From positions 1-22,521 of IMG/VR virus record IMGVR_UViG_3300033149_004693: a stretch of 22,521 bases of DNA; one strand, written 5' to 3'. Below the pieces are notes generated by a model. The model ran no database searches. It worked only from the letters and a program-made list of their open reading frames with translations, and was not told the DNA's origin. A program made the translations under genes and the position numbers. Source of the stretch: a virus. Position 1 is the stretch's first letter. The number at the start of each line of letters is the position of its first letter. Of the stretch, positions 938-20,506 are shown piece by piece.

Positions 938-1078
938 ATGATAACCAATAAGATATGTAAAGACTGTGGAATAGTTCCAGAAGACGCAAAAGGAAAATTC
1001 CTTTACGTAGTGATTGATGAAAGAAGGATACCCGTTGGTCTTTGCGAATCATGTTTAAATAAAAGATTAGGACGGTAA
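938..1078 (+). CDS. Tiny zinc-ribbon protein (46 aa)
   Basis: This short gene starts at ATG 938 with a perfect AGGAGGT site at 926-932 and ends at TAA 1076-1078. The product contains CKDC near the N-terminus and CESC near the C-terminus, spaced about 29 residues apart, with a VVIDERRIPVGL strand between; four cysteines would bind one zinc ion. It may bind nucleic acid or a partner protein. Family not recognised. It lies between the resolvase and the phosphoribosyltransferase in what looks like one transcription unit. The strong ribosome site and the paired cysteines make it a convincing gene despite its size. Confidence 0.75.
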   Translation: MITNKICKDCGIVPEDAKGKFLYVVIDERRIPVGLCESCLNKRLGR

Positions 1079-1083
1079 AGAAT

Positions 1084-1425
1084 TTGACCGAATACATTAG
1101 TTGGTATAAATTTGAACTCGGGATGAAAAAAATAGCTGAAGATATCAAAATCTCAGGAAAAGAATATACCGGAATCTATGGAATACCCAGAGGTGGTCTA
1201 ATCCCTGCGGTCAGGTTGAGTCATTTGCTCGGGATACCATTGACCACAATCTTAGATGAAGATACTCTTGTGGTTGATGATGTAGCTGACACTGGAGCTA
1301 CTCTTCTTGGATATGAAACATACGATAAGGCAACTCTTTACTGGAAGCCAGATTCAGAGATTAAACCCGAGTATTATGCCTTTACCACAAGGGAATGGGT
1401 CGTAATGCCGTGGGAAGAAAAATGA
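1084..1425 (+). CDS. Phosphoribosyltransferase, xanthine/hypoxanthine type
   Basis: The protein (113 residues) carries the PRPP-binding loop TLVVDDVADTGATL (residues 61-74) of type I phosphoribosyltransferases, preceded by GIYGIPRGGLIPAVRL (30-44) and ending in a VVMPWE tail typical of archaeal purine phosphoribosyltransferases. These enzymes transfer ribose-5-phosphate from PRPP to a base. Next to queD and queE, it could act in purine salvage or supply precursor for base modification; that is inference. The start is TTG at 1084; AGGACGG at about 1069-1075 precedes it, and the conserved N-terminal helix argues against the later ATG at 1123. It is somewhat shorter than cellular homologues, with a compact hood region. 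Confidence 0.75.
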   Translation: MTEYISWYKFELGMKKIAEDIKISGKEYTGIYGIPRGGLIPAVRLSHLLGIPLTTILDEDTLVVDDVADTGATLLGYETYDKATLYWKPDSEIKPEYYAFTTREWVVMPWEEK

Positions 1426-1453
1426 CCACAACTGACCATAAAACTTATATACC
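1423..1453 (+). promoter_or_regulatory. queD operon promoter: tandem 10-bp operator plus TATA box
   Basis: TGACCACAAC (1423-1432) and TGACCATAAA (1433-1442) are tandem at exactly 10 bp, one helical turn, and abut the TATA box CTTATATA (1444-1451). The distance from TATA to the ATG at 1475 (about 27 bp) predicts a leaderless mRNA. The same layout occurs at 19079-19107. The element could be bound by a viral activator or repressor, or form an extended BRE. The first unit begins at the stop codon of the preceding gene. Confidence 0.65.
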
Positions 1454-1474
1454 AGAACTATCATATACTTAACT

Positions 1475-1912
1475 ATGCACTCAGTAAGCGTCAAGGGACA
1501 TTTTTACTCAGCACACCTTCTGAATGGATACAAAGGAAAATGCAAGAACCTGCACGGACACAATTACTTAGTAGAGGTAATTCTACAAGGTAATGAACTC
1601 AATGATATAGGAATCCTTTTCGACTTCAGTAAATTGGAGCACGAACTTAACAAAATTCTAAATACATTAGACCATACAACAATACTGAAAGAATGTGAAG
1701 AAAATAAATCATTAATTGAAGTATTAAAATCAATGAAGTCACAGGTAATTCTATTTCATGACAATCCAACAGCAGAAAATTTAGCAAGGTATATATACAA
1801 AAAACTCAAGAAAAATTTCTTCGGAAATAAGAAAATAAAATCCATGCTCAGAAGTGTAAAGGTTTGGGAAACAAACGATTGTTTAGCTGAGTTTAAAGAG
1901 GAGGTGCAATAG
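1475..1912 (+). CDS. queD: QueD / 6-carboxy-5,6,7,8-tetrahydropterin synthase family
   Basis: A member of the 6-pyruvoyl-tetrahydropterin synthase fold, 145 residues, the usual length. The zinc ligands are H14, H27 and H29 (FYSAHLL and LHGHNY), with C23 as the likely catalytic cysteine in the conserved spacing; LDHT (about residue 65), PTAEN and the C-terminal VWET segment complete the active site. QueD turns dihydroneopterin triphosphate into 6-carboxytetrahydropterin, the step before QueE in preQ0 synthesis. The mRNA is probably leaderless. It heads a run of close genes (Alba, zinc ribbon, QueE and others). An archaeal PTPS with another pterin role is possible, but the nearby queE favours QueD. 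Confidence 0.85.
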   Translation: MHSVSVKGHFYSAHLLNGYKGKCKNLHGHNYLVEVILQGNELNDIGILFDFSKLEHELNKILNTLDHTTILKECEENKSLIEVLKSMKSQVILFHDNPTAENLARYIYKKLKKNFFGNKKIKSMLRSVKVWETNDCLAEFKEEVQ

Positions 1913-1913
1913 T

Positions 1914-2249
1914 ATGCCAAAGCAGGATGCAAACGATGGGATAATCTTCGTGAGCTACAAGGAAGACGAGAGAGGAAGGCAAATAAAACCAGCAATGTCA
2001 TACATAACCCCATTATTGATGCAATCAAGCAACAGAGATAAGGTGTTGATAAGAGCAAGAGGAAGAGCAATAAGCAAGGCAGTAGATGTCAGCCAGATAG
2101 CATTAAACAAATTCCTAAAGGGATGGGGAATGGGCAACATATCAGTAGGAACAGAAGAATATGAGAAGGAAGTCACAGAAAACAATCAAACTTCCAAAGT
2201 AAATGCTAAGATATCCTACATAGATATTGAACTCATTAAGAATAGGTGA
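1914..2249 (+). CDS. Alba-family DNA/RNA-binding protein
   Basis: The 111-residue product shows the Alba core: a SYITPLLMQ helix (29-37), then the diagnostic block VLIRARGRAISKAVDV (44-59), ALNKFL (63-68) and ISVGTEE (76-82), ending in a SYIDIELIK strand. Alba proteins are dimeric archaeal chromatin and RNA-binding proteins. A virus-encoded copy may coat viral DNA, bind RNA, or compete with host chromatin. GAGGAGGTG (1898-1906), 7 bases before the ATG, is a near-perfect ribosome site, and the gene follows queD by 1 base. The N-terminal extension of about 25 residues and the loop at 83-96 are longer than in small cellular Albas. Confidence 0.88.
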   Translation: MPKQDANDGIIFVSYKEDERGRQIKPAMSYITPLLMQSSNRDKVLIRARGRAISKAVDVSQIALNKFLKGWGMGNISVGTEEYEKEVTENNQTSKVNAKISYIDIELIKNR

Positions 2250-2256
2250 TATTAGT

Positions 2257-2454
2257 ATGGGACACCAAGGGTATTGCGTGAAGTGCAATCGAGGTAGGAA
2301 GAAAGGTGAGTGGAAACCTGTTGAGCTTGTAGACGAAAAAATAGAGACCAGAGAAAGATGGTCAAGGAAGCAGAGAGTCAAAATTAGATATAAACTGCTC
2401 AGGGGAAGATGCCCAAAATGCAATACACCAGTAACAGTAATTATTGGCAAATAA
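2257..2454 (+). CDS. Zinc-ribbon protein, DUF5679-like
   Basis: The product (65 residues from ATG 2257) starts MGHQGYCVKCN and ends RGRCPKCNTPVTVIIGK, with two CxxC knuckles about 40 residues apart and a very basic middle. The beginning and end match the plan of the short DUF5679 zinc ribbons found in viruses and archaea, but the middle is longer. ATG 2257 is preferred to the in-frame TTG 2227 because AGGTGAT (2244-2250) stands 6 bases before it and a TTG start would overlap the alba end. The function is unknown; nucleic-acid binding is plausible from the basic charge. Confidence 0.75.
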   Translation: MGHQGYCVKCNRGRKKGEWKPVELVDEKIETRERWSRKQRVKIRYKLLRGRCPKCNTPVTVIIGK

Positions 2455-2469
2455 TCAAGAAGTGATAAA

Positions 2470-3231
2470 ATGAAGGTATCAGACATTTTCCATAGTATTC
2501 AAGGTGAAGGAGTGACAGCAGGTTATCCAGCAATATTTATACGATTGGGTGGATGTAACCTTAGTTGTTGGTTCTGTGACACAAAATACACATGGCTATT
2601 CTCAAAGGAACAGGCAAATCATGTTAAGGAAGACATCAAGAGATTACAAGCACCAATACCAAGAGACCTAAAAGTATACAACCCAGACTTTGAACTGAAA
2701 GAGATGAAGCCCGAAGAAATAATAAAAAGGATAAACAAATTCAAATGTGATAGGCTCGTGGTAACAGGCGGAGAGCCAATGCTCCAACAGAGAGAACTCC
2801 TTGACTTGTTTGTCAAAATGAAGGACAATACTTCTGTTAAGTATATTGAAGTTGAGACAAATGGAACCATACTCCCTGATATTTTGATTAGAAAGCATGT
2901 ATCTCAATGGAATGTGTCACCCAAGATTAGCAGTTCAGGGAATAAAAAAGAACTATGGCTCAACCCCGATGTGCTGATATTTTTCTCACAGATACCTCAT
3001 AAGGCATGGTTCAAATTCGTGATAACCTCACAGAAGGATATGAAAGAAGTATTCAAATTAATCAGAGATTATAATTTGATGCCTGACAGGATAATACTCA
3101 TGCCAGAAGCTACTACCTCACAGGAACTCAAAGCGAAGTCACAATGGCTCATAAACATCTGCAAAAAACATAATTTTATATTTGGAAATAGAATACATGT
3201 GCAAGTTTGGGGGCAACAGCGGGGAATATGA
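2470..3231 (+). CDS. queE: QueE, 7-carboxy-7-deazaguanine synthase (radical SAM)
   Basis: QueE converts 6-carboxytetrahydropterin to 7-carboxy-7-deazaguanine, the radical SAM ring-contraction step of preQ0 synthesis. The 253-residue protein has IQGEG (10-14), the cluster motif C29-x3-C33-x2-C36 (GGCNLSCWFCDT) typical of QueE, TGGEP (99-103), ETNGT (129-133) and NVSPK (148-152). It includes an insertion at about 43-85 between the cluster loop and the next helix, seen in longer archaeal forms. It is the second pathway enzyme here after queD; QueC and the GTP cyclohydrolase are not in the window and may come from the host or from beyond the edge. Confidence 0.9.
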   Translation: MKVSDIFHSIQGEGVTAGYPAIFIRLGGCNLSCWFCDTKYTWLFSKEQANHVKEDIKRLQAPIPRDLKVYNPDFELKEMKPEEIIKRINKFKCDRLVVTGGEPMLQQRELLDLFVKMKDNTSVKYIEVETNGTILPDILIRKHVSQWNVSPKISSSGNKKELWLNPDVLIFFSQIPHKAWFKFVITSQKDMKEVFKLIRDYNLMPDRIILMPEATTSQELKAKSQWLINICKKHNFIFGNRIHVQVWGQQRGI

Positions 3232-3636
3232 ATGGCAGAGAACAGAAATGTAAAGGACGACCTCAGAAAAATAAAGAATTGGTTAAGAAAGCAAGAAGTG
3301 GACGAAGGAGAAGAAATCCCATCAAAAAGCAAGGAAAGAGTTTACAGTGCTATGGCAAGACAGATAAGACAAATCAAGCCATTACCCACAGGGAGTTGCC
3401 ATCTATGTGGGTTCTATACCGAGGACTTGATACCTATTCCATTAAGAATTTGTCCAAGATGTTTCAACAGGTTCACACGAAGAGGTGGAAACCAGAGGAT
3501 ACTAAACATTCAATTCGGAGCTTACTCATGTGATGTATGCAAATCACAGGCAATACATACTGTGACTATAAATCCATTGATATGTTATAGGTGCTTGAGA
3601 AGGATAGGGAAGGTGCATAGAATTGGAAGTAACTAA
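3232..3636 (+). CDS. Four-knuckle zinc-finger protein
   Basis: The 134-residue protein begins with a charged helical region (about 1-45), followed by four CxxC pairs: CHLC, CPRC, CDVC and CYRC. They would form two zinc sites in a double treble-clef or ribbon arrangement. Spacing and basic surroundings suggest nucleic-acid binding, but no family is recognised. The ATG directly follows the queE stop, so the two are likely translationally coupled. An overlapping frame from 3207 to 3533 lacks any such pattern and is a shadow. Confidence 0.75.
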   Translation: MAENRNVKDDLRKIKNWLRKQEVDEGEEIPSKSKERVYSAMARQIRQIKPLPTGSCHLCGFYTEDLIPIPLRICPRCFNRFTRRGGNQRILNIQFGAYSCDVCKSQAIHTVTINPLICYRCLRRIGKVHRIGSN

Positions 3637-3805
3637 ATTTGAACAGATAGAAGTGAACTTTGACCCAAAGAAAATAAGAGAAGCACTCGGTCTGGAAGAC
3701 GACTGGGAGCTCGTCTGGATAGACAAGATACCATCGGATTTCAAGAGGGAGACCAAGGGATTCAGGGTAACGTTAAGGAGAGTGCTGAAAAATGGAGATG
3801 TCTGA
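3623..3805 (+). CDS. Hypothetical 60-aa protein
   Basis: A small acidic-basic protein (EVTKFEQIEVNFDPKKIREA at its start, a DDWELVWID centre and a FRVTLRRVLKNGDV end). The start is TTG at 3623 with AAGGTG (3610-3615) 7 bases upstream, and the gene overlaps the preceding one by 14 bases. The family is not recognised. The alternating strand-helix-strand character suggests a folded domain. Its place immediately before the ParB-methylase gene suggests the same transcript. Confidence 0.6.
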   Translation: MEVTKFEQIEVNFDPKKIREALGLEDDWELVWIDKIPSDFKRETKGFRVTLRRVLKNGDV

Positions 3806-3836
3806 ATGTAGAAAAAATCAGGGAGGATATTGATTC

Positions 3837-5111
3837 ATGAAAATAATAAAGAAAAGACTCGGTGAACTGAAGAAGGCACCATATAATCCGAGAACAATAT
3901 CTAAATATGATATGGATAAACTCAGAACATCGATATCGAAGTTTGGATATGTGGAACCAATAGTTTGGAATAGACGAACAGGGAATGTAGTTGGCGGGAA
4001 TCAGAGACTGTTGGTATTAATGGAAACAATGAAATTAGAAGATGAAATAGATGTGGTAGAAGTAGACATGCCTTTAAGCAAGGAGAAGGCACTGAATATA
4101 GCATTGAATAGAATAAGCGGCGACTGGGACGAGGAGAAGCTGTCGGAGGCGATACAGTCGATAATGGATGATGACAACGAGCTTATTAAACTTACTGGAA
4201 TGGATGACGAAGAAATAAGCAGATTAATAGACGCATATAAAGAAACAGAAGAGGATGACTTCGATATAGAAAAATCAATGATGAAACCAAAATATAAAAT
4301 ACAAAAAGGAGATATATACCAGTTAGGACAGCATAGATTGATGTGTGGAGATGCTACGGATAGCCAAAATGTAGATAACTTAATGGGTAACGAAAAAGCG
4401 GATATGGTATTCACCGACCCTCCATATAATGTTAATTATAAATCAAAGTCCGGACATGGCTACAATACAGGAAAATATAAACATAAAAAAGTATTTGATG
4501 ATAATAAGAAAGAAGAAGATTATAAAAAATTCATATATGATATTGTCAATAACATAGTTAAATTCACAAAAGAAAAATGTCCAGTATATTTTTGGCTCGC
4601 AATAAGATATTCAAATATTGTTACACAAGCTTTCAAAGATAACAACTTTTCAGTGAATTCTTTCATAATATGGATAAAAGACCATCTTATAATGGGACAT
4701 GGAACATACCATAAATGTTATGAGTCAGCATTATATGGATGGAAAAACAAAAAAAGACCTTATGAAGCAAGAATATTAACATCTGGAGAAGTAGATTTAT
4801 GGGACCTAGATAAAAAAGATTTTGAAGAAAGATTGGATATGTGGAAAATAAGAAGAGATATATTTTCAGAATACAAACACCCAACACAAAAACCAGTAAA
4901 GCTTGCTGGAAGAGCTATAAAAAACAGCTCAAAAACAGGTGATATAATTCTTGACCTATTCGGTGGAAGCGGTTCAACCTTAATGGCTTGTGAACAGCTT
5001 AATAGAAAATGCTACATGATGGAATTAGACCCAATCTATTGCTCGGTCATAATTGAGCGATGGGAGGCTTATACGGGTAAAAAACACAGGAGGATTACGG
5101 TCAAAAATTAA
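3837..5111 (+). CDS. ParB-like nuclease domain fused to a DNA N6-adenine/N4-cytosine methyltransferase
   Basis: Residues about 5-95 are a ParB/sulfiredoxin-like domain: YNPR (16-19), then VVGGNQRLLV (51-60). A linker (95-150) leads to a class-beta amino methyltransferase: KGDIYQLGQHRLMCGD (157-172), catalytic motif IV DPPYN (194-198), HPTQKP (348-353), then the SAM-binding loop DLFGGSGST (373-381) and MELDP (395-399). DPPY favours N6-adenine. Such fusions are frequent in phages and are thought to modify viral DNA against host nucleases; the target site cannot be read from sequence. GGAGG (3822-3826) precedes the ATG. A GC-rich patch at about 4115-4165, in the linker, contrasts with the AT-rich methylase core and may mark a fusion joint. 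Confidence 0.9.
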   Translation: MKIIKKRLGELKKAPYNPRTISKYDMDKLRTSISKFGYVEPIVWNRRTGNVVGGNQRLLVLMETMKLEDEIDVVEVDMPLSKEKALNIALNRISGDWDEEKLSEAIQSIMDDDNELIKLTGMDDEEISRLIDAYKETEEDDFDIEKSMMKPKYKIQKGDIYQLGQHRLMCGDATDSQNVDNLMGNEKADMVFTDPPYNVNYKSKSGHGYNTGKYKHKKVFDDNKKEEDYKKFIYDIVNNIVKFTKEKCPVYFWLAIRYSNIVTQAFKDNNFSVNSFIIWIKDHLIMGHGTYHKCYESALYGWKNKKRPYEARILTSGEVDLWDLDKKDFEERLDMWKIRRDIFSEYKHPTQKPVKLAGRAIKNSSKTGDIILDLFGGSGSTLMACEQLNRKCYMMELDPIYCSVIIERWEAYTGKKHRRITVKN

Positions 5112-5214: not shown

Positions 5215-5691
5215 ATGGCGAGTCGGAGAGAAGTCGAAAAGAGAATATCTATTGTGAAGCGGTCACTAATTATGGGAATACCCCTGACTCAGATAGCCGA
5301 GGAACTCGGAATTTCTACGAGGCAGGTTGCCAATTATGCGAAGAAGATAAGGCAGGAATCGGGAGATGACTTCAAGAACATAAACATCGAGAACGAGATT
5401 ACGGATTTTCTTTTCAAGAACACCCAGCTCATAAATGAGGCTATGAAGCTATTCCACAAGTCGAGGCACGACCCATCAAAGGTCGGGGCGTTGAAGCTGG
5501 CGGGAGACAGACTCGACAGAAGGTTAGAAGTTCTTCAGAACTTAAACATCATAGGTACACAGTCTACTGGGAATCTCTTAGCAGATGAGATTGCTGAATA
5601 TGATAAGGTCTATGCTTACCTCATGGATAAACAGATGAGTGATAATCGTGTCCAAAAATCTACAACCGTCCCAGTTAGCAGAAAAACATAA
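5215..5691 (+). CDS. terS: Terminase small subunit
   Basis: The 158-residue protein has an N-terminal helix-turn-helix (residues 8-45: IVKRSLIMGIPLTQIAEELG then STRQVANYAKKI), a helical oligomerisation region (about 50-115, rich in Leu and charged residues), and a polar tail. This is the usual design of small terminases, which recognise the viral packaging site and regulate the large subunit. Identification rests on the HTH plus its position directly before the large subunit, which it overlaps by 53 bases. The family-level match is loose, so another HTH regulator is not excluded. Confidence 0.75.
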   Translation: MASRREVEKRISIVKRSLIMGIPLTQIAEELGISTRQVANYAKKIRQESGDDFKNINIENEITDFLFKNTQLINEAMKLFHKSRHDPSKVGALKLAGDRLDRRLEVLQNLNIIGTQSTGNLLADEIAEYDKVYAYLMDKQMSDNRVQKSTTVPVSRKT

Positions 5692-6976
5692 ACAGAGTCA
5701 TTTCCTTGACCCTGTGAATTTTGCAAGGATAATTTTAGGAGTAGAGCTGTATCCATACCAGAAGAAATGGATTAGAGACAGAAGCAAACAAAAAATCTTT
5801 GATGCAGGAAGACAAGTAGGGAAGACCACAGTAACAGCGATAGAAACTATCTGGGAAGCATTTTGTTTCAGAGACCAACAGATACTTATCTTCTCACCCA
5901 CATGGAGGCAGACGACAATCCTCTTCACAATGATTCTGGAAATAGCCCGAAGCAATCCAATAATTAGAAGGCATATAGTCAAGGACACAAACACCATGCT
6001 GTTCTTTGACAATGGCTCTAAGGTGTTCGGCTTAACAGCAGGAAGGACAGGATTACCGGGAAGAGGTTTCTCACCAACAAAGGCAAAGTTTGACGAGGGA
6101 GCATTTATACCAGACCAATCATTCACAGCATTCATTCCATTCCTTGTGAGACATAAGGCACATATTGAACTACTCAGCACTCCCTTCGGCAAGAGGGGAT
6201 TCTTCTACAATGCCTTTATCCATTGGAAGGGGTGGAGCAGGCATAAAGTGAAGTCAGAAGATTGCCCAGACATGAGTAAGGAAGACATAGAGGCAGAAAG
6301 ATTGAAAATGACAGAGAACGAGTTTAGACAGGAGTTTGAGGGTGAGTTTATAGAGGAAGTAGATGTATGGTTGCCAAGAGAACTAATACTACAGTGTGTC
6401 AAGGAGGGACTTGCTGTTAAATTCACAAAGAGACCAGATTGTGAATACGTATGTGGACTTGACATAGCACGATTCGGTCTGGATGAAACAGTATTCACAG
6501 TAGTAGAGAAGAATCCAGAAGGAGAGGGTCAGGTTATCTATATAGAGGCAACACAGAAGAAACCAATAACAGATACCATAGGAAGATTGTTACAACTCCA
6601 TAAAAAATTCAATTTCACTTCCTGTTATGTTGATGAGTCAGGACTCGGTGGGGGAGCAGTAGACATTCTGAAAGAGAAGGACATACCCGTGAGACCCATA
6701 ACCTTCACATTACAGAATAAGGATGTCATGTATAAGAATCTTAAAATGCTAATGGAACAGAAGAAAATCTGGATACCCAACAATCCCAGACTCCTTAACC
6801 AGTTAGCCACACTTCAATATGAGTTCAGTAGCAATGGACTCGTTAAAATACACCATGAAGAGAATGGACATGATGATTATCCAGACTCGTTGGCTCTTGC
6901 TTGTATGTGCTTGAAGAGAGAGGAAGGAGGATTCACATTCCTTGAAGACGAAGAGAATGTTACAGGACTGTTTTAA
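5639..6976 (+). CDS. terL: Terminase large subunit (ATPase-nuclease)
   Basis: This motor pumps DNA into the prohead and cuts the concatemer. Residues 1-250 are the ATPase: Walker A AGRQVGKTT (56-64), Walker B with D152-E153 (KFDEGAF) and the coupling motif STP (180-182). The RNase H-like nuclease follows, with acidic residues D275 (GLDIARFG), D332-E333 (YVDESG) and D413/D416 (HDDYPD). Length 445 is normal. The start is GTG 5639, inside the small-subunit gene, with GTG 5648 as an alternative; neither has a strong ribosome site, which suggests coupling. Confidence 0.95.
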   Translation: MIIVSKNLQPSQLAEKHKQSHFLDPVNFARIILGVELYPYQKKWIRDRSKQKIFDAGRQVGKTTVTAIETIWEAFCFRDQQILIFSPTWRQTTILFTMILEIARSNPIIRRHIVKDTNTMLFFDNGSKVFGLTAGRTGLPGRGFSPTKAKFDEGAFIPDQSFTAFIPFLVRHKAHIELLSTPFGKRGFFYNAFIHWKGWSRHKVKSEDCPDMSKEDIEAERLKMTENEFRQEFEGEFIEEVDVWLPRELILQCVKEGLAVKFTKRPDCEYVCGLDIARFGLDETVFTVVEKNPEGEGQVIYIEATQKKPITDTIGRLLQLHKKFNFTSCYVDESGLGGGAVDILKEKDIPVRPITFTLQNKDVMYKNLKMLMEQKKIWIPNNPRLLNQLATLQYEFSSNGLVKIHHEENGHDDYPDSLALACMCLKREEGGFTFLEDEENVTGLF

Positions 6977-7275: not shown

Positions 7276-10200
7276 ATGGTTAAGATATTCGGGATTGAGA
7301 TTGGTTCAGCAAAGAAACATCAGGAAGAGATAACTAAACTCCAGACACAAATTATGGAAGAGCAGTTTAATAATAATTTTAGACCTGTCATAGACCAAAC
7401 ACAAGTTATGGGCGATGAAATTGTAAAGATACCTTATTATCCATTACCTGAAAGACATTTATTTGATGTTGCGGCTCACTCAGATGTTCTAAGAAATGTA
7501 ATCAGGGCATTGAATAAAGAGATATTCAGGCATGGGTTTGAGATAACAGAAAAGTTTGCCAAGAAATGTAAAGTATGTGGAAAAGAATTTGAACACCCTG
7601 TTGATGAATGTGACGAGTGCAAAAAAGAAGGCAGACCTTTCCATAATCTAAGAGACCCAAATTCAAAACAAAGGGAAATTCTGGAAGTCTTTCTGAAACG
7701 AGTAAACGACAATGAACAAGATATTATCAAGGTTTGTAAGATGGTGAACAATGATATAGAAACTATTGACAATGGTTACTTCCTTCTTGTAAAAGATTAT
7801 TTCTGGAACGAAGAAGGAATGCTCATAGGAAGTTTACCGAGAGAATTGGTCAGGGCAGACCCCAAACATATCAGGATAATTGCAGATGATACAGGAAGAC
7901 TCGGAAGAAACAAGGCAGGGGAGATAATAAGAACCTGCCTTGAACATAGAGAAGAGTTTTGGGTAAAAAGATTGAAATGTCCACGATGTGGAAGAAAATT
8001 ATTTCCTGCTTACTATAGAGGACAAGCCCCAAATGGTAAATATTTATTCTATATCAAAAACGAAATATACCACACCTCAAAATATATGCCAAGCATGGTT
8101 TATGGATTCTCACCTATCTTCTCAGTCTGGATGAAGGTAAATACATTGATGTATCAAGACCGATACATGTTGGACTATTATCTGAAACAGAGACCTCCAA
8201 GAGCATTAATGTTCGTAAACACATCAAACATGAATTCCTTACAGAAAATGTGGGCATGGATGAAAGACCAATTTAAAAAGAATCCACATCAGATACCTCC
8301 GTGTGGTGTTGAAACACCCGGTAAAGGTAAATTCATTGAATATATTGACTTCATGAAATCCCTTGATGAGATGCAATTCATAGAGGCAAGAAACGAATTC
8401 AGAAGGTCAATAGGTTGTTATGATGAAAAAACAGAAATATTCACAAGTGAAGGATGGAAACTTTTCTCAGAACTTACAGAAAAGGAATTAGTAGCAGAAG
8501 TTAATGACAACTTAACAATCAATTTTGTAAAACCAAGACATTATTTCAAAGCAGATTATGAAGGAGAGATGTATAGTTTCAAGACAAAGTCTTTAGATTT
8601 ATTGGTGACACCAAACCATAACATGGTGGTTGTCAATGAAAACAAGTATTACTCAACAAAACAAATGCAGATGCAGTTGAAAAGAGCAGACCAGACAAGA
8701 AGATGTATAATACCACAAACAATCGAATGGGAAGGGAAAGAAATAGATAAATTTACAGTTGCGGGACAAAAATTAAAGAATCATATACTAAAGCCGATAG
8801 TTCTTAATGGTGATGATTACTGTAAATTTATGGGCATATATCTTTCAGAAGGAAGTGTTTCAAAAGATAAATATTACAAAGTTCAAATTGCACAGTCAAA
8901 AGATAATAACAAAGAAAAATATGAAAAAATAAAGGAAATGATTAAATCTTTACCTTTTAATTATTTTGAAGTTAAGAATAAAGGAATAGTAGTGAATTCA
9001 AAACAGTTGAATGAATACTTAAGACAGTTTGGATATTCTGGAGAAAAATATGTTCCAGATGAAATAAAGAATGCTACAAAAAGACAAGTAAGGATTTTTC
9101 TTGATTGGTTTATTCTTGGAGATGGATACAAAAGGACATATATTAAGAATGGACATACAAATGAAAGAATAATTACTAAATCGAAAAAATTAGCTGATGA
9201 TATACAGGAACTTTATCTAAAGCTTGAAATTTCAACGACTTTAAGAAAAACAAAAGAAGGATACTATGAAGTATCAACAAGACACACAAAAAACAATAAA
9301 TGGAAAAAATACTCACGAATTAGAAAAGAAAACATAGAAAAGGAATATTACAAAGGAAAGATATACTGTGTCGAAGTTTCATCACATAAACTTTTGGTCA
9401 GAAGAAACGGAAAAATCGCAGTTTGTGGCAATAGTGTCTATGGGGTTATGCCACTATTCCAAGCCGATGTAAGTACGTCAGGTGGGCTAAATAACGAGGG
9501 ATTGCAGGTTACAGTTACAAATAGGGCAGTAGAGGATGGACAAGAGGTCTATAACAAGGGCTTCTTCCCTTGGTTGCTCAAACAATTAAGGATTACAGAT
9601 TATGTTCTTGAACTTGTGCCAAGCGAGGAAAGAGATGAAATGGCCGAATTGCAGATAGAAGCCCAGAAGATACAGAACGCAAGGATGATGCAATCAATGG
9701 GCTTTGATGTAACCCTTAATGAAGATGGTGATTTTGAATACGAACCAACAGAAGTACCAGTAGAACCTCCAACTCCAACAGAAGGAATGAGAGAAGGAGT
9801 TCCACGAATAGGGACAACAGGACAGGTAGAACCTCCACAAAATATGTCAGGTGAACCTCCAGACATGAGAAGAAGTAAGGATGCTCCTATATCAACAACT
9901 ACAACAGAAGTTACAAACCCGAGATATAATATGAGAAGAAGAGAGTTAGAGAAGTTCTTACAGAAAACTCTTGAAGATATAATAAAGGAAACTAAGACCA
10001 AAATGAGCATCAAAAAACAGGGAGAAGGTATGGGAGATATGATTAAATTCCTTATGGGTTCACTTTTCACAGGAAAATTTAAGGGAATATCAACGGAAAA
10101 ATCAAATTTAATCAAAGAATATCTAATCAGAGCATTGACAAAGAAATATCCATTAACAAGGATTATAAATTATATAAACAGAAAGGGTGGAAAAAATATA

Positions 10201-10494
10201 ACTCCAGAACAAGCAGAGACTATAGCCCGAACAGAAATTCAAGCACTCCAAAACAAAGCGAGGGAATGGTCTTATAAAAAAGTAGACCCACAGGAAAAGT
10301 TCAAGTATAAGTGGATAAATCCTTTGGATAACAGAACAACTGAAATCTGTAAAAAATTGGTAGCAAGGACAAGAAACGGTGTTTCCCTTGATACTTTAAA
10401 GAAGATGATAGCAGAGGAATCGAAACTTGCAGGATTTGAACCGAGAGAGTTTACGCCTCATATTGGTTGTAGGTCAACCTTCGTTAAAATATAG
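7276..10494 (+). CDS. Portal protein fused to a MuF-like head morphogenesis domain, interrupted by an intein
   Basis: The precursor has 1072 residues; removal of residues 381-719 leaves 733. The portal part (1-380 and 720-about 830) forms the dodecameric DNA channel and terminase dock. It carries knuckles absent from most phage portals: C98-x2-C101 with C112-x2-C115, and C221/H224 with C235-x2-C238, likely zinc sites. A proline-rich linker (about 835-880) leads to a C-terminal MuF domain (about 940-1072, SPP1 gp7 family) with ETIARTE (981-987), W1013, DNR (1018-1020), C1025 and the PHIGCRS end (H1062, C1065). Portal-MuF fusions are known but less usual than separate genes. ATG 7276 has no strong ribosome site nearby; it follows the regulator by 32 bases. 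Confidence 0.88.
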   Translation: MVKIFGIEIGSAKKHQEEITKLQTQIMEEQFNNNFRPVIDQTQVMGDEIVKIPYYPLPERHLFDVAAHSDVLRNVIRALNKEIFRHGFEITEKFAKKCKVCGKEFEHPVDECDECKKEGRPFHNLRDPNSKQREILEVFLKRVNDNEQDIIKVCKMVNNDIETIDNGYFLLVKDYFWNEEGMLIGSLPRELVRADPKHIRIIADDTGRLGRNKAGEIIRTCLEHREEFWVKRLKCPRCGRKLFPAYYRGQAPNGKYLFYIKNEIYHTSKYMPSMVYGFSPIFSVWMKVNTLMYQDRYMLDYYLKQRPPRALMFVNTSNMNSLQKMWAWMKDQFKKNPHQIPPCGVETPGKGKFIEYIDFMKSLDEMQFIEARNEFRRSIGCYDEKTEIFTSEGWKLFSELTEKELVAEVNDNLTINFVKPRHYFKADYEGEMYSFKTKSLDLLVTPNHNMVVVNENKYYSTKQMQMQLKRADQTRRCIIPQTIEWEGKEIDKFTVAGQKLKNHILKPIVLNGDDYCKFMGIYLSEGSVSKDKYYKVQIAQSKDNNKEKYEKIKEMIKSLPFNYFEVKNKGIVVNSKQLNEYLRQFGYSGEKYVPDEIKNATKRQVRIFLDWFILGDGYKRTYIKNGHTNERIITKSKKLADDIQELYLKLEISTTLRKTKEGYYEVSTRHTKNNKWKKYSRIRKENIEKEYYKGKIYCVEVSSHKLLVRRNGKIAVCGNSVYGVMPLFQADVSTSGGLNNEGLQVTVTNRAVEDGQEVYNKGFFPWLLKQLRITDYVLELVPSEERDEMAELQIEAQKIQNARMMQSMGFDVTLNEDGDFEYEPTEVPVEPPTPTEGMREGVPRIGTTGQVEPPQNMSGEPPDMRRSKDAPISTTTTEVTNPRYNMRRRELEKFLQKTLEDIIKETKTKMSIKKQGEGMGDMIKFLMGSLFTGKFKGISTEKSNLIKEYLIRALTKKYPLTRIINYINRKGGKNITPEQAETIARTEIQALQNKAREWSYKKVDPQEKFKYKWINPLDNRTTEICKKLVARTRNGVSLDTLKKMIAEESKLAGFEPREFTPHIGCRSTFVKI
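8416..9432 (+). mobile_element. Intein with LAGLIDADG homing endonuclease inside the portal gene
   Basis: Residues 381-719 (339 aa) of the portal precursor. It starts with Cys381 in CYDEKTEIFT (block A), has T445-P-N-H448 (block B), two dodecapeptide motifs FMGIYLSEGS (518-527) and LDWFILGDG (609-617) of a LAGLIDADG endonuclease, YCVEVSSHKLLV (block F) and ends NGKIAVCGN, followed by Ser720. Splicing would join SIG to SVYG. The penultimate residue is Gly instead of the usual His, a variant seen in active inteins. DNA here is more AT-rich than the flanking portal sequence. Both endonuclease motifs keep the acidic residue (E525, D616), so it may still be mobile. Confidence 0.93.
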
Positions 10495-19126: not shown

Positions 19127-20506
19127 ATGGCAAAGAACAGAAACAGCAGAAGAAGACTTCAACATCAGCAACTCCAGAAAAAGCCAAAGATATGTGTATG
19201 TGTACCTGTTTACTATACGATTCCAGCACATTTCTTTATCAATTTCATAGATTTACTTTGTAAGAATATGTCCAGATATGTTCTTGAATGCATAATTCAG
19301 CAGGACATTCCTGTTGATAAAGCAAGGAATGAGATGATTAAACTTGCATTACAGAAGAATGCTGATTATATTCTCATGCTTGATAACGATAACCTTCTCC
19401 CCAAGAATGGACTTGATAGATTGGTAGAAGTAATGGAACAGGAAAAAGCCGATTTCGTAACCGGAATTTATTTTGAGAAGAAGAAACCATACTATCCTGT
19501 GTTAAGAGAATATCATGATGGTGGGTTCTGGAAGATAGAGAACCCACCACTCGGCAAAGTAATAAAAATAGATGGTTGTGGACTCGGTTGCTGTCTGGTA
19601 AAACCCGAAGTCTTTCGTAAGACCAAATATCCTTGGTTCAAATTCAATCATGAGAGATGGGGATACAAAGATATTCAACTCAGCGAAGACCTTTACTTCT
19701 GTCGGCAGTTAAGAGAAAAGGGATTCAAAATGGTCTGTGATACTGGTTTAATATCTAGTCACATAGGTGGAATGATAGATGCCTTTGAATATATGAGCAT
19801 GAAACCAATTAGACAAGCCGCATTAATAGGAAGAGAAGAAGCCATAAATGATATATCTGAGTTCACAAAGTTAAGCAATTACGAGACTAATATGAGGATA
19901 ATGGTTGGTTCAACACTGATGGCTAATGAATGGAAGGAGAAGAATCCAAAAACTACAGAAGAGATAAAAAAATTCTACAAGGAAACAAAAAATTACATCT
20001 ATGACCTATTTTACTGGCATTTCACAACAAGAAGGCAGTTTGATATTGAACTTATCACAGGTCTGCAAAAAATAGCACAGAAAAATAAAACAAACCCGAA
20101 AGATATAAGGATACTTGACTTTGCATGTGGAATCGGTCAGAATGCATATATGTTGGCTCAAAAAGGATTCAATGTAACCATAGCAGACCTTGATGGTTAT
20201 ACCCTTGACTTCGCAAAATTCAGGTTTGATAAACACAAACTACCCTACAAACTATGGAAGATAGATGTTGATAAGAAGCCACCCGAGGAAAAATACGATG
20301 TTATCTGTTGCTTTGATGTTTTTGAGCATCTGCCTAAAAGCGAGTTCAGGAAAACAATAAAGAAACTGATGAAATTGAAACATGAGAAAACAAAAGTTCT
20401 TATTACAGTAAATTTCGGCAAGACAGATACTTATTTAATGCACTTTGAATCAGACGAGGAAACAATAAGATTAATCAATGAATTGGCAGGAAAAAGAATT
20501 ATATAA
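19127..20506 (+). CDS. Family-2-like glycosyltransferase fused to SAM-dependent methyltransferase
   Basis: The N-terminal 230 residues form a GT-A domain: ICVCVPVYY (22-30), KARNEMIKLAL (65-75), and the metal-binding DND (86-88 in MLDNDNLLP). GCGLGCCLVKP (150-160) and the SED (186-188) fit the acceptor and catalytic region. After a helical linker (about 230-320) a class I methyltransferase follows: motif I ILDFACGIGQN (329-339), acidic D354/D356, and motif IV DVICCFDVFEHL (391-402). It could add a sugar and methylate it, or methylate a glycan made by others. Substrate unknown. The neighbouring sequon-rich proteins are possible acceptors. The transcript is probably leaderless; both domains appear intact. 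Confidence 0.85.
   Translation: MAKNRNSRRRLQHQQLQKKPKICVCVPVYYTIPAHFFINFIDLLCKNMSRYVLECIIQQDIPVDKARNEMIKLALQKNADYILMLDNDNLLPKNGLDRLVEVMEQEKADFVTGIYFEKKKPYYPVLREYHDGGFWKIENPPLGKVIKIDGCGLGCCLVKPEVFRKTKYPWFKFNHERWGYKDIQLSEDLYFCRQLREKGFKMVCDTGLISSHIGGMIDAFEYMSMKPIRQAALIGREEAINDISEFTKLSNYETNMRIMVGSTLMANEWKEKNPKTTEEIKKFYKETKNYIYDLFYWHFTTRRQFDIELITGLQKIAQKNKTNPKDIRILDFACGIGQNAYMLAQKGFNVTIADLDGYTLDFAKFRFDKHKLPYKLWKIDVDKKPPEEKYDVICCFDVFEHLPKSEFRKTIKKLMKLKHEKTKVLITVNFGKTDTYLMHFESDEETIRLINELAGKRII

Follow-up and report, generated by a model that had tools for sequence, protein, structure and literature searches.

A putative 7-deazaguanine DNA-modification cassette, incomplete in the recovered fragment, beside the packaging genes of an archaeal tailed virus, and its phosphoribosyltransferase partner

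Modification of DNA by 7-deazaguanines (preQ0, preQ1 or G+) is known from the Druskaviridae HVTV-1 and HCTV-1 and from phages 9g, CAjan and Rosebush. In this exchange, which is of the TGT type, the transglycosylase DpdA expels one guanine for every modified base inserted, while FolE spends one GTP for every base made. HCTV-1 carries QueF-QueC-QueD-QueE-FolE in one region. The DNA of HVTV-1 contains dPreQ1 at 30% of G, as measured by mass spectrometry (PMC6884629). Hutinet et al. grouped 48 phages that carry genes of the pathway without DpdA and proposed a role in tRNA for them; HVTV-1 was assigned to this no-DpdA class, yet has dPreQ1 in its DNA (PMC6884629). The present study concerns a cluster of genes (nt 938–5111) in the virus record IMGVR_UViG_3300033149_004693, a linear fragment of 22,521 bases that was analysed over its whole length (the complete IMG/VR record, here called the window). 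The cluster has the QueD and QueE families in common with the systems above and is probably part of a DNA base-modification cassette of an archaeal tailed virus, with a phosphoribosyltransferase (PRT) that would return guanine, lying directly before the packaging genes. Unlike the described systems, the visible window has no FolE, QueC, QueF or DpdA, its cassette lies beside the terminase, and the PRT, Alba and ParB-methylase genes are interleaved with or adjoin it. Overall, there is partial support for a base-modification cassette of a kind already known from viruses, of which the fragment holds an incomplete version.

The genes considered here all lie on the plus strand. Read 5' to 3', they encode an Hjc-like nuclease, a small zinc protein, the PRT, QueD, Alba, a zinc protein, QueE, a second zinc protein, a 60-aa open reading frame (ORF), a ParB-methylase, and the small (TerS) and large (TerL) terminase subunits. 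Those from the PRT through the ParB-methylase overlap or are separated by short gaps, with TerS and TerL starting at nt 5215 and 5639. The gene content, coordinates and near-contiguity given in the original prediction for the PRT-QueD-Alba-zinc-QueE-zinc-60-aa-ParB-methylase series hold, with strong family scores for the main members, and chance or mis-translation is excluded as the source of the E-values behind the gene identities. What that prediction missed is the role of the PRT as a recurrent partner, described below.

QueD (6-carboxytetrahydropterin synthase; nt 1475–1912) matches PF01242 (E 5.6e-35) and TIGR03367 (93.1 bits, cut-off 89.25) and contains the motif CKNLHGHNY. QueE (nt 2470–3231) matches phrog_2076 (E 3.7e-53) and the structure of a known QueE (PDB 6nhl, E 2.1e-12), and has the CX3CX2C cluster motif (CNLSCWFC). 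Both frames are full-length, free of frameshifts and truncations, and keep all key motifs, and the pair required by DpdA-type viral 7-deazaguanine DNA modification is thus present in the window. As their families and motifs show, the two enzymes together make 7-carboxy-7-deazaguanine, while FolE (acting before them) and QueC (after them) would be supplied from elsewhere. A DNA transglycosylase DpdA, seen in relatives and not here, would then trade guanine in the viral DNA for 7-deazaguanine, freeing guanine. The ParB-methylase, judged by its family, would add a second, independent modification.

Several observations weigh against this reading. Neither QueC nor FolE was found in the 22.5-kb window with PHROG and Pfam models or with profiles made from relatives, and DpdA was found neither by phrog_887 nor by the relatives' profile, the record being a fragment in each case; moreover, the ParB-methylase holds the slot usually taken by DpdA in relatives (directly before the terminase, or before ParB). 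The record, however, ends artificially on the left and probably represents less than half of the genome, so that absence from the fragment is no proof of absence from the virus. The Pfam TGT model (PF01702) was rejected as a DpdA detector, as it gave zero matches even in DpdA-bearing viruses, and phrog_887 was used in its place. Candidate alternative transglycosylases were noticed near deazaguanine genes in viruses without a phrog_887 DpdA (L010:14449-15612, which is HCTV-1 gene 64, DUF6610; L002:14074-14832; L012:20261-20656; L and G numbers denote the comparison records). Further phage deazaguanines (DpdL, DpdA3/4) have reportedly been described in a 2023 paper in Nucleic Acids Research (NAR).

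The case for the cassette comes from the same place in related viruses. In G050/L095 (IMGVR_UViG_3300037041_001843; capsid protein 55% identical) the terminase is preceded by QueD-QueE-PRT-FolE, a second PTPS-like protein, DpdA, ParB and then TerS-TerL, the PRT being 40% identical to that of the window. L108 (3300033150_002012) has QueD-QueE-FolE-QueC-DpdA-TerL, and L104 (3300018080_000773; capsid 72%) has FolE, a PTPS-like protein, two other ORFs, DpdA and TerL. In G062/L125, likewise a capsid relative, the arrangement is QueE...QueD-FolE-PRT-HAD-like-QueC-DpdA-TerL, and in L003, which was reached through QueE, QueD-QueE-FolE-PRT-QueC-DpdA-TerL. Elsewhere the pre-terminase place holds a ParB-methylase (L109), ParB alone (L110) or neither (L105). 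By tree path, the TerL of the window is also closest to those of L104 and L108; most forks in the TerL and capsid trees are unresolved, and only such nearest-path statements were kept. G050, L108 and L104 belong to the same virus group as the window (capsid 55–72%), with cassettes at the same position and homologues of its QueD, QueE and PRT, but carry FolE and DpdA (L108 also QueC) where the window has a ParB-methylase. Because relatives hold DpdA sets, a ParB-methylase or ParB there, the pre-terminase locus is a place where genes for DNA modification are housed. The window mixes two types of content, combining the QueD, QueE and PRT of the first with the ParB-methylase of the second. The second small PTPS-like protein beside FolE (L095:8805-9131, L104:524-847) has a His-rich motif without the QueD-type cysteine before it. 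It occurs in cassettes without a detected QueC and could act on 7-carboxy-7-deazaguanine; QueC-less end products such as dCDG and dDG are no more than a lead.

QueD and QueE might instead boost the tRNA archaeosine pathway of the host during infection, with the methylase as the sole DNA modification and no deazaguanine in viral DNA. The failure to find DpdA, FolE and QueC in the fragment and the methylase in the usual DpdA slot would fit such a role, as would the tRNA proposal of Hutinet et al. for the 48 no-DpdA phages (PMC6884629). We consider it rather unlikely, as the capsid and TerL relatives keep DpdA alongside these genes and HVTV-1, although classed as no-DpdA, still has dPreQ1 (PMC6884629). 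The base-modification reading of the original prediction therefore stands as the best one, since relatives carry a fuller pathway with DpdA at the same position and the capsid-related Druskaviridae include HVTV-1 with its measured dPreQ1, but the part that would depend on FolE, QueC and DpdA finds no counterpart in the fragment. That the window virus modifies its own DNA with deazaguanine is suggested by kinship and gene company. If so, the known range of 7-deazaguanine DNA modification would grow by a group of uncultured archaeal viruses in which the cassette is placed beside the packaging genes.

The variability of the locus (DpdA sets in L104, L108 and G050, the ParB-methylase alone in L109, ParB alone in L110 and neither in L105) could also indicate a decaying or swapped cassette, in which the DpdA/FolE part has been exchanged for the ParB-methylase and QueD, QueE and PRT are left with little present function. 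The intact, full-length QueD and QueE frames with their key motifs argue against this, and we regard it as improbable. The ParB-methylase itself (nt 3837–5111), a ParB-domain, N6-adenine-type DNA methyltransferase, matches phrog_498 over its full length (E 7.4e-126) and PF01555 (E 1.1e-32), with a ParB-like N-terminus followed by a methylase domain with DPPY and FGGSG motifs. It differs from other phrog_498 proteins in its location, between the queD/queE cassette and the terminase; a homologue in L109, 46% identical, also lies before TerS/TerL.

The PRT (nt 1084–1425; 113 aa) is a short purine enzyme of the xanthine-guanine phosphoribosyltransferase (XGPRT) type, matching PF00156 (E 1.9e-6) and phrog_8995 (E 2.9e-14). 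A profile of its family finds the Pyrococcus purine PRTase 1vdm (E 2e-25) and groups with archaeal and bacterial xanthine-guanine PRTases, and its structural model (pLDDT 75.6) matches 1vdm and XGPRT, so that fold and sequence motifs are both of the XGPRT type. With known XGPRT/HGXPRT enzymes (1vdm, E. coli Gpt, Sulfolobus GpT-2) it shares the fold, the pyrophosphate (PPi) loop, the phosphoribosyl pyrophosphate (PRPP) loop, a base-side Trp and PW(E/D). Its best phage match (44% identity) is in Flavobacterium phage vB_FspM_immuto, which has the order QueD-QueE-PRT in common with the window but follows it with FolE, has DpdA and QueF close by, infects a bacterial host and carries no Alba.

Domains of this type lie beside or within FolE in many queD-queE loci. 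In 14 viral contigs the gene after queE encodes a PRT of about 93–108 residues and then FolE in a single protein (for example L015:8104-8928, L027:10231-11070, L063:10718-11572 and L129:4899-5792), for which Pfam reports just FolE. The fused domain matches the stand-alone PRTs with an hhalign probability of 99.4 and hmmsearch E-values of 1e-9 to 7e-15, and E. coli XGPRT aligns with all 95 residues of an AlphaFold model of the N-terminal domain (pLDDT 96.6), at Z 11.5 and rmsd 2.5. In the fetched loci, 31 of 33 PRT domains have QueE or FolE within 2 kb (one of the 33 being a second copy of that in the window), although this linkage is biased, as the loci were mostly chosen through QueE. A fairer test is the phage collection, which was searched independently of QueE: the fusion domain has matches in 33 records, and just as many match the whole fusion protein over at least 80%. 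Among the phages bearing it are Quinobequin-P09, NP1, PaMx25, VpKK5 and MMDA13, annotated, where annotation is given, as GTP cyclohydrolase; the fusion thus occurs in cultivated phages of Pseudomonas, Vibrio, Xanthomonas and Sphingomonas, labelled simply FolE. A literature search found no description of a PRT linked to FolE or preQ0 in phages among the papers covered. The PRT is a recurrent partner of the deazaguanine pathway that has apparently gone unremarked, and the PRT/PRT-FolE association is a new, testable element. It flags a purine-salvage domain as a regular partner of the pathway, a claim that is testable at once in isolated phages. A HAD-like domain was also seen in the deazaguanine cluster, fused to the PRT in L003:11210-12007 and beside it in L125:5645-6411.

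Judged from its linkage and its fusion to FolE, the small PRT would convert the freed guanine to GMP, and thus to the GTP that the pathway consumes. The fusion fits such a guanine economy because DpdA releases guanine while FolE consumes GTP. An overlooked recycling step, in which an XGPRT-type domain beside FolE/QueE or at the N-terminus of FolE turns DpdA-expelled guanine into GMP, is a possibility that we put forward tentatively; if true, DNA modification would cost little net guanine. A point against it is that the viral short PRTs (95–113 aa in the window and the fused forms, often joined to FolE) are without most of the loop region that in XGPRT lies between the PPi-loop and PRPP-loop motifs. 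For this reason their catalytic activity is uncertain and a sensing role is a serious rival, in which the domain would be regulatory, responding to guanine, GMP, PRPP or ppGpp and controlling FolE. The PRT fold is put to such regulatory use in PyrR, and structural matches of the viral domain include both PyrR and a ppGpp-bound PRT (5vog). Stand-alone and fused forms alike, however, retain RGG, DDxxD(S/T)GxT, a Lys and the C-terminal W-x-x-PWE, and longer stand-alone forms (L074, 155 aa) take the same place beside FolE. A purely regulatory domain is on balance doubtful, if by no means far-fetched.

The original prediction suggested that Alba, the methylase and the base modification work together to protect and package the DNA. 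The gene (nt 1914–2249) encodes an Alba domain (PF01918, E 7.5e-9; 1nfh, E 1.6e-12) with the motif ARGRAISKAVD, scoring under the NCBIfam equivalog cut-off. Close spacing and a single direction in the window, together with the position before the terminase, would suit a combined system. Searches of the 22 further records of capsid-relative viruses (cassette-bearing ones included), of a set of 50 records and of the phage records found no Alba, however, and as a query it retrieved no relatives among viral contigs. Because it was found in no other searched record, Alba does not belong to any conserved system, and the combined arrangement is very improbable. Alba and the zinc proteins may rather be passengers, or may bind DNA in roles of their own.

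The small zinc proteins and the 60-aa ORF (nt 3623–3805) gave zero family matches above curated cut-offs. The first zinc-type protein (nt 938–1078; 46 aa) has a CxxC...CxxC pattern, and the zinc-ribbon-like protein (nt 2257–2454, within an ORF of nt 2227–2454 and with a likely ATG near 2257) has CxxC pairs. The third (nt 3232–3636; 134 aa), with two CxxC...CxxC modules, recurs before the terminase or portal in L105 (32%) and L111 (29%). As no deazaguanine gene was found in these two relatives, it tracks the virus lineage and not the deazaguanine pathway.

TerL (nt 5639–6976; phrog_2, E 3.3e-41), which served as the synteny anchor, is nearest to that of the haloarchaeal virus HGTV-1 (33.8%), and TerS (nt 5215–5691) is identified by its position and a helix-turn-helix (phrog_7067, E 0.0016). 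Downstream of TerL are a portal-MuF protein with an intein, a neck protein, a putative protease/scaffold, the major capsid protein, and surface and tail genes. The capsid protein has its nearest isolates among Druskaviridae such as HVTV-1 and HCTV-1 (31–33%) and also resembles that of a Methanofastidiosa-assigned virus; the capsid search yielded 25 viral contigs at 34–72% identity and one Pacearchaeota-binned contig. Judged by TerL, portal-MuF and capsid, all nearest to archaeal viruses, the window belongs to an archaeal tailed virus (Caudoviricetes). The host is most likely an archaeon, with no finer naming, because of the TerL and capsid kinship, the Pacearchaeota-binned contig and the archaeal thermosome (group II chaperonin) genes on related viral contigs (L097:4075-5673, L098:2802-4490, L107:11168-12703). 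Naming the host from capsid relatives in metagenome-assembled genomes (TA06 bacterium, Pacearchaeota) was rejected as too weak, these being viral contigs in bins. Upstream of the cluster, the Hjc-like (archaeal Holliday-junction resolvase-like) nuclease (nt 554–934) is a weak assignment (PF01870, E 0.004, below cut-off). The intein, with a LAGLIDADG domain, sits within the portal-MuF protein (nt 7276–10494).

The viral DNA has met restriction pressure. GATC is absent from the window (0 vs 64 expected), and further 4-bp palindromes (GGCC, CTAG, GTAC, TCGA, GCGC and CGCG) are strongly depleted. GATC is likewise absent from the stretch of HCTV-1, a Druskavirus (0 vs 111 expected), and nearly or wholly so from DpdA-positive relatives. 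The avoidance of sites was accordingly discarded as an indicator of modified DNA, since it does not discriminate: DpdA-positive relatives and HCTV-1 are purged too. The HGTV-1 stretch (L011) has no GATC (206 expected), CTAG (68) or AGCT (150).

An operator-bearing promoter before queD, also proposed originally, has modest support. Before queD, the element TGACCATAAA is accompanied by a TATA-like box (nt 1433–1451). The element occurs exactly at nt 539 and 1433, and with at most one mismatch 8 times vs 3.19 expected (at least 8 in 2 of 100 shuffles), which suggests a possible shared operator/promoter. The copy on the queD side, TGACCATAAAACTTATATA, is closely like that upstream of the gene at nt 19127, CGACCATAAACTTATATA. 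More broadly, (C/T)GACCATAAA is repeated at nt 539, 1433, 12382, 19079 and 19089, followed by CTTATATA at 1433 and 19089. The gene at nt 19127–20506 joins glycosyltransferase-like and methyltransferase-like domains and is conserved in close relatives (46–51%).

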